From NCBI GenBank assembly GCA_013360575.1, contig JABWBG010000008.1:1-35013 (forward strand): a DNA stretch of 35,013 nucleotides, in the 5' to 3' direction. The DNA comes from Caldilineales bacterium. Its GTDB lineage: Bacteria; Chloroflexota; Anaerolineae; J102. The notes beneath the pieces are model-generated. The model was not told the origin of the DNA. It ran no database searches and saw nothing but the letters and a program-made list of their open reading frames with translations. The translations under genes and the position numbers were made by a program. Numbering within the stretch: position 1 is the stretch's first letter; each line of letters starts with the position of its first letter. Below are positions 31,126 to 34,081 of this stretch, piece after piece.

Positions 31126-31173
31126 CCCCCTGACCACTGACCACTGAATACTGAACACTGAACACTGACCACT
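31126..31173 (+). repeat. CACTGAACACTGA-type spacer repeat
   Basis: The units CTGACCACTGA, ATACTGAACACTGA and ACACTGACCACTG follow each other in the spacer between the GT39-like gene and the TTG-started GT4. They continue to 4 nt before that start, so no ordinary ribosome binding site is visible there. Confidence 0.8.
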
Positions 31174-31176
31174 GCC

Positions 31177-32403
31177 TTGCGCCTCCTCTACCTCTGCCTT
31201 TCCCCCACCTTTGGCATGCACCAATACACCGCGGGCCTGGCCAACCAGATGGTTGCCGCCGGCCACGACGTGCATGTCATCGGCCCGGCTGGCCTCCCCC
31301 GCGACCGCTACCACCCTGCCGTCCACATCCACACCCCCCTGACCAACCGCACCACTGGCTTCTCCCGCGAAGGCCTCGACCTCCCCGCCCTCCGCCGCGT
31401 CCTCGCCTGCCTCCATACCCTCTCCCTCCCCCACCCCCTCCCCCACCCCCCCCCCCACCCACCCAACAAACCAACCAACCAACCACCCACCCACCCACCC
31501 AACCAACCAACAAACAAACCACCCAACCAACAAACCAACAAACCAACAAACCAACAAACCACCCTCCACCTCACCGCCCCCCACCTCTGGAACCCGATTT
31601 TTATCCGGCGCTGTCATAAACGCGGCCTTTCCGCTATACATACAATACACGACCTCGATCCCCATCCCGGCGTTCCCTTTGGCCGGCTCATCCCCCTGTG
31701 GAACCGCCTGATCCTGCGCCAGGCCGATCACATCCTTGTCCATGGCCGCTGCTACCGCCGCCGTCTTGTCGCCCAGGGCCTTTCCCCTCGCCGCGTCACC
31801 GCCCTCCCTCTCCTCCACCTCTGCTTCAGCCACGCCGCCCAGGCCGGGCTTGACTCCCTGCCGCCCCCCTCGCCCGCCGCCCCCCCCTCTCTCCTCTTCT
31901 TCGGTCGCCTGCTGCCCTACAAAGGCATCCCCGACCTGCTACAGGCCTGGCAGCAGGCCGCGCTGGGCAACGCCCGCCTCATCCTGGCCGGCCCTGGCGA
32001 CCTCGCCGCCCTCTGGCCGCATGATCTGCCCCCTGGCGTCGAACTGCGCAACCATCTCATCCCCGACGCCGAGGCCATCGCCCTTTTCCAGACCTGTTCC
32101 CTGCTCGTGTTGCCCTATGTGCAGGCCACCCAATCCGCGCTCATCCCCGCGGCCTACTACTTTGGCAAGCCGGTGCTGGCCGCGGACACCGGCGCCCTGT
32201 CCGAATACATCCTGCCTAACCGCACCGGCTGGCTTTTCCCTCCCGGCGATGTCCCCGCCCTCGCTGCGGCCCTCGCCACCCTCCTGACCGATCCTGCCCT
32301 CCTGCGCGGGATGGGCTTTGCAACCCGCGCCTGGTACGAAGCCCAGGCCGCGCACGAACAAACCGCCCTCCCCGCCCTCTACACCCAGCCCCCCGCCCCC
32401 TAA
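31177..32403 (+). CDS. GT4 glycosyltransferase interrupted in frame by a tetranucleotide repeat tract
   Basis: This 408-residue GT-B protein starts MRLLYLCLSPTFGMHQYTAG at a TTG codon, has HTIHDLDPHPG, LVHGRCYRRRLV, LLFFGRLLPYKGIPDLL and LVLPYVQATQSALIPAAYYF, where the usual EX7E is replaced by a TQSALIPAAYYF-type motif as in some GT4 relatives. At about residues 85-130 the protein is only His/Pro/Asn/Thr/Gln, encoded by CCAA/CCCA/CAAA repeats. These replace the loop before the strand LHLTAPHLWNP. The tract unit is 4 nt, so a unit change would shift the frame. Another CCAACC tract follows the stop. Confidence 0.87.
   Translation: MRLLYLCLSPTFGMHQYTAGLANQMVAAGHDVHVIGPAGLPRDRYHPAVHIHTPLTNRTTGFSREGLDLPALRRVLACLHTLSLPHPLPHPPPHPPNKPTNQPPTHPPNQPTNKPPNQQTNKPTNQQTTLHLTAPHLWNPIFIRRCHKRGLSAIHTIHDLDPHPGVPFGRLIPLWNRLILRQADHILVHGRCYRRRLVAQGLSPRRVTALPLLHLCFSHAAQAGLDSLPPPSPAAPPSLLFFGRLLPYKGIPDLLQAWQQAALGNARLILAGPGDLAALWPHDLPPGVELRNHLIPDAEAIALFQTCSLLVLPYVQATQSALIPAAYYFGKPVLAADTGALSEYILPNRTGWLFPPGDVPALAAALATLLTDPALLRGMGFATRAWYEAQAAHEQTALPALYTQPPAP
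31426..31560 (+). repeat. Intragenic C-run and CCAA/CCCA/CAAA tetranucleotide tract
   Basis: A C-rich part (to about 31465) is followed by CCAA, CACC and CAAA units. It ends with four perfect CCAACAAA octamers at 31527-31558. The complementary strand is made of closely spaced GGG/GGGG runs (from 31430 to 31500) and could form G-quadruplexes. The tract is in the coding sequence of a GT4. Confidence 0.92.
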
Positions 32404-32409
32404 AACCGC

Positions 32410-32482
32410 CCCCGCCCCACCCCCCACCCACCCACCCAACCAACAAACCACCCAACCAACAAACCAACCAACCAACAAACCC
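32410..32482 (+). repeat. CCAACC/CAAACC tract downstream of the GT4 gene
   Basis: This is the same repeat type as at 31426-31560, now between genes. It begins 7 nt after the GT4 stop. The remaining spacer to 32587 contains CACTCGCCTGCA/CACTCACCTGCA near-repeats at about 32505-32528 and no gene. Confidence 0.88.
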
Positions 32483-32587
32483 AATACCGTGTGGCCTTGC
32501 TGGTGCACTCGCCTGCACTCACCTGCATCCGCCAGCAAGCGCCTTCTCGCCCCGGTGTGCTCGGATCTCCTCGATTCAGGTGAAGCC

Positions 32588-34081
<1,494 letters not shown>

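Follow-up and report, generated by a model that had tools for sequence, protein, structure and literature searches.

The window, by which we mean the whole 35,013-nt stretch of DNA that was analysed, carries on its forward strand a gene for a 408-residue glycosyltransferase of the GT4 family (31177–32403, TTG start). The start at 31177 is aligned with the starts of the orthologues. An earlier note on this DNA had assigned the gene to GT4, and Pfam bears this out (PF13579, PF13692 and PF00534, with Glyco_trans_4_4 and Glycos_transf_1 above their cut-offs). Further, the AlphaFold2 model of the enzyme (mean pLDDT 90.5) has a confident GT-B fold and matches GT4 structures at E 7e-17. The best structural matches, and thus the nearest solved structures, are MshA/BshA-type GT4 enzymes (PDB 3c4q and 3mbo), which have the fold and the GT4 domains in common with this protein. 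Their identity to it is about 16–19%, and for this reason its substrate was not deduced from theirs. In this comparison, the repeat linker described below has been described only for the present enzyme.

According to Pfam, the products of neighbouring genes include an O-antigen-ligase-like protein, a methyltransferase, a GT2 enzyme, a PMT_2 protein and a PF02397 sugar transferase. Given neighbours of these types, it is plausible that the glycosyltransferase belongs to a surface polysaccharide cluster. The PF02397 protein, a polyprenyl-phosphate sugar transferase that also has a CoA_binding_3 domain, is encoded downstream on the same strand (32588–34081); its ATG near 32588 is the inferred start within a full ORF of 32318–34081. 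Repeats flank the glycosyltransferase gene on both sides. Upstream, a forward-strand heptamer array with the units CTGACCA, CTGAACA and CTGAATA (31130–31174, Tandem Repeats Finder) stops 2 bases short of the TTG start; the CTGACCA-type family has 504 related matches in this genome. A Shine-Dalgarno sequence is not obvious at this array. Directly 3′ of the gene, Tandem Repeats Finder detects an intergenic tract of CCAA/CCCA/CAAA units (32415–32484, forward strand), which the earlier note did not list and which is laid out like the tract within the gene: a C-run, then CCCA, then CCAA/CAAA.

The C/A tract and its predicted place in the enzyme

Within the gene, positions 31440–31564 of the forward strand consist solely of A and C. 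This run of 125 nt, a length that may be inexact given a fragmented assembly of 403 contigs, is the longest of its kind in the window; 200 shuffles under a dinucleotide model yielded a maximum of 21 nt, and the tract is thus far from chance. Tandem Repeats Finder reports arrays at 31430–31509 (period 4) and 31455–31561 (periods 4 and 16). The tract begins C-rich with an uninterrupted C11 (31446–31456), continues with CCCA and then CCAA/CAAA units, and closes with CCAACAAA octamers on the forward strand (approximately 31525–31561), which are perfect across 37 nt, or 4.6 copies. Taken as a whole the tract is degenerate, since no pure 4-nt run in it is longer than 19 nt. C11, which the earlier note did not mention, is the window’s longest homopolymer. 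By classical criteria it is the most slippage-prone element of the tract, and slippage there is no less likely than in the octamers.

The tract is in frame in ORF 31177–32403 and encodes a linker of Pro, Asn, Thr and Gln. In these respects the earlier note was right: it had described CCAA/CCCA/CAAA units ending in perfect octamers, a coding-frame location with just such a linker, and an opposite strand able to form G-quadruplexes. A motif search located G-quadruplex motifs on that strand, the first reported at 31486–31500; the same pattern has nine motifs in the whole window. We also considered growth of the tract in 12-nt, in-frame steps and discarded it, as there was no signature of it: identity at lags of 12, 24 and 48 was not above that of the spacer tracts.

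In the AlphaFold2 model, residues 84–127 are a low-confidence coil (linker blocks with pLDDT 53–76) between helix 69–83 and strand 128–132 of the N-terminal Rossmann domain. The tract would thus form the core of a disordered linker in place of a 12-residue loop, and the simplest reading of the model is that this site is an insertion-tolerant surface loop.

Spacer repeats of the host genome

The tract belongs to a dispersed family of spacer repeats, its unit being present in many spacers of the host genome and absent from nearly all other genomes searched. A 28-mer from the tract has 72 matches in this genome (up to 2 mismatches) and none in 60 relatives. A second 28-mer has 359 matches here and none in 397 of 399 other Chloroflexota; the remaining two have 9 and 1. 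In the stretches fetched from this genome, C/A arrays sit intergenically, often 0–50 bp short of a start codon. Among 142 array rows with a period of 4 or 7 in these stretches (overlapping loci and both periods counted; genes called with an ad hoc codon model in place of a standard gene caller), clear coding on both sides was found only for the glycosyltransferase tract, with one other, weak case. A literature search turned up nothing specific on repeats or phase variation in Anaerolineae.

TAACTGA-type heptamers are spacer repeats of Beggiatoaceae, Cyanobacteria and Bacteroidetes, the coding copies of which are in frame, in the stop-free orientation and mostly at protein edges (MacGregor 2015, PMC4679880). 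Our repeats resemble them in forming short spacer arrays throughout the genome that often end just before a start codon and are occasionally in frame in genes. They differ in their principal unit, a C/A repeat of 4/8 nt that is specific to a single genome, and in that copies within genes recur, with different units, at one orthologous loop. Nor is the tract itself made of TAACTGA units, since it consists of CCAA, CAAA and CCCA; the neighbouring heptamers are of the similar but distinct CTGACCA type.

The spacer arrays also have a polarity. In 95 spacers of this genome, C/A-type motif copies number 604 on the plus strand of the right half and 595 on the minus strand of the left half, against 169 and 129 in the opposite arrangements; the right third is richer in A+C than the left in 74 of the 95 (p 4e-8), a bias present in every gene-orientation class. 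These figures describe stretches that were selected for repeats, with genes taken from a simple codon model. Smaller samples from other genomes gave no polarity that was significant on its own. As a side observation, the C/A-rich strand of both CCAA and CTGACCA arrays faces the flanking gene on either side (L057–L092, L111–L130). We prefer this outward rule to a pure 5′-UTR leader role for the arrays, which was dropped because tracts also follow stop codons in antisense. Some spacer centres between inverted CCAA arrays (L066, L068, L074, L080, L089) share TACCAATTTACCAATCT-like octamers, and the centres of L066, L068, L074 and L089 contain a AGATCGCCAAAAAACACGAAAAC-like motif. It is conceivable, though we give the idea little credence, that an active process, specific to each genome, deposits short repeats of fixed polarity in the spacers of these Anaerolineae and sometimes in permissive protein loops like that of the glycosyltransferase. 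The 3′ direction of the G-rich strand would point inward from either flank, as though 3′ ends had been exposed, extended with G-rich repeat and then joined.

The same loop in orthologous enzymes

Orthologues at E<=1e-70 are present in 38 of 396 Anaerolineae genomes, and 42 distinct ones, collected from two genome sets, were compared. The loop in question precedes a strand that ends in H(F/L)TGPHLWN. It is exactly 12 residues long in 32 of the 42, 14 in one, and 16–89 in the other nine. Four of these nine longer loops contain clear tandem arrays, and their units differ: CCAA in the window’s glycosyltransferase, CCGACCT and CTTCGACAAGCTCAGG in L014, GGCAGAG in L030/L011, and TTGTCAG/CTGACAA with GGCAGGG in L029. 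In the loops of 16 and 17 residues, and in portions of some others, repeats are not obvious. When the loop was excluded from tree building, the state of the insert required about 6 changes on the tree, and at least 5 of them are forced by well supported branches.

For L014 and L029, the units are likewise scattered through the genome that carries them. That of L014 matches its own genome 44 times, G007 3 times and three other genomes not at all; the L029 heptamers have 29 matches in theirs. The L030 insert is weakly represented in its own genome, G038, with 6 matches, 3 of them within the gene itself; G005 has 9. In the L029 insert, TTGTCAG lies to the left and CTGACAA to the right, which is the polarity layout of the spacers.

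Several side observations concern repeats in coding sequence. An interspersed element, CCCTTCGACAAGCTCAGGACG, has 8 copies in G005, two of them in the glycosyltransferase loop (L014 1501–2778). Five other arrays in G005 lie in apparent coding frames; several of them, in-frame heptamer arrays in other genes (L136, L141, L144, L146), encode 7-residue repeats of the RRSEVGG type. The N-domain of the glycosyltransferase has a further loop with insertions, located before strand 2 (HEVHLVTT), in L040, L041 and L051; the insertion in L051 is repeat-like.

All insert-bearing orthologues that we found are in frame, and no internal stops were found in the orthologues. The L029 heptamers CTGACAA, CTGAAAA and CTACTCA recur in that order with a 21-nt period. 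In the phase that would give an in-frame TGA, five of five heptamers read TAC, and the remaining eleven read CTGA; of 131 heptamers counted outside this gene, about 1 reads ACTAC. This pattern is stop avoidance. It would also be explained if one change had occurred and the 21-mer had then been amplified, in which case the open unit must still be the one that spread.

A tolerated linker or a switch

An important question is whether the tract is a simple-sequence contingency locus, in which slippage in the octamers, the tetramers or C11 would switch the glycosyltransferase on and off and vary the surface polysaccharide. The earlier note had proposed such a phase-variable switch, and its premise stands: units of 4 or 8 nt are not multiples of three, the tract is in frame, and gain or loss of a unit would truncate the protein, the net +1 frame reaching a stop 19 codons past the tract and the net +2 frame after 50. 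Because a 4- or 8-nt change would end the protein so soon, switching is mechanically possible. C11, the 4.6 pure octamers and the polysaccharide-type neighbours (O-antigen ligase, GT2, PMT_2, PF02397) also give the locus the look of a contingency gene, and they count against our own reading of it as an intruded repeat. The dispersal of the repeat elsewhere, too, may be compatible with co-option of the copy in the glycosyltransferase. Haemophilus influenzae has CCAA contingency loci in hgp genes and in a putative glycosyltransferase, with uniform tracts of 7–16 units at the latter and up to 39 in hgp, and with demonstrated length variation among strains (PMC2651432). The likeness to our case lies in the association of CCAA units with a glycosyltransferase gene. 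The present tract, in contrast, is degenerate and is one of hundreds of copies that are mostly in non-coding spacers; moreover, it lies in a mid-gene loop, not near the start codon. With unrelated repeats in the orthologous loops and every insert found in frame, the proposed switch is not supported, and we consider it unlikely.

Another possibility is that the linker has a function of its own, as a disordered Pro/Asn/Thr/Gln tether. It would alter how partners bind, how substrate gains access or how fast translation proceeds (through polyproline pausing), and it would have been selected, with differing sequences, in several lineages. Independent and recurrent growth of the loop at one site, with the frame maintained, would fit this notion. 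The amino-acid tandem repeats of Borgs, which are extrachromosomal elements of archaea, offer a parallel: their perfect nucleotide units lie in spacers and genes, and the coding ones are disordered regions under frame selection that have been argued to be adaptive (PMC9879509). The units here are degenerate and reside in a bacterial genome. Further, the inserts vary widely in sequence and charge among lineages, and 32 of 42 orthologues do without one, so that selection for a tether seems rather improbable to us. Still less credible is an assembly artefact, in which a spacer repeat from elsewhere was misjoined into the gene or the tract was given a wrong length. The assembly is fragmented (403 contigs), and in G143 and G124, members of one genus, contigs end exactly at the loop, as fits repeats that break assemblies there; the N-terminal halves of these two orthologues were searched for and not found. 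Nonetheless, the frame is kept through the tract, both halves of the protein match one orthologue family, and independent in-frame arrays occupy the same place in L014, L029 and L030, which makes an artefact highly improbable.

We favour, with a probability of roughly three in four, the view that spacer repeats specific to each lineage have repeatedly intruded into a loop that tolerates insertion, with selection keeping the frame open. What speaks for it is the genome-wide dispersal of the repeat, its in-frame state, its location at a loop in the predicted model, the recurrence of inserts with different repeats in orthologues, and stop avoidance in one of these. The genome’s own C/A-rich spacer repeat would have arisen or expanded within a single GT4 loop; we infer the route by which it arrived. 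The enzyme would then carry a disordered linker, about 43 residues longer than the usual one, in which Pro, Asn, Thr and Gln are abundant, and its function is probably normal. Slippage or recombination could change the length of the tract, while selection keeps the frame open and presumably purges most out-of-frame lengths.

An on/off switch is thus less likely than a tolerated linker, because the tract is a copy of a spacer family and because the loop in relatives holds repeats of its own that differ from it. This tempers what would be a tempting call of phase variation. The locus amounts to a natural experiment: one loop, 12 residues long in most lineages, has been filled independently by different spacer repeats with the frame kept. 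It can therefore be used to ask how non-coding repeats turn into protein and how bacterial spacer repeats spread.
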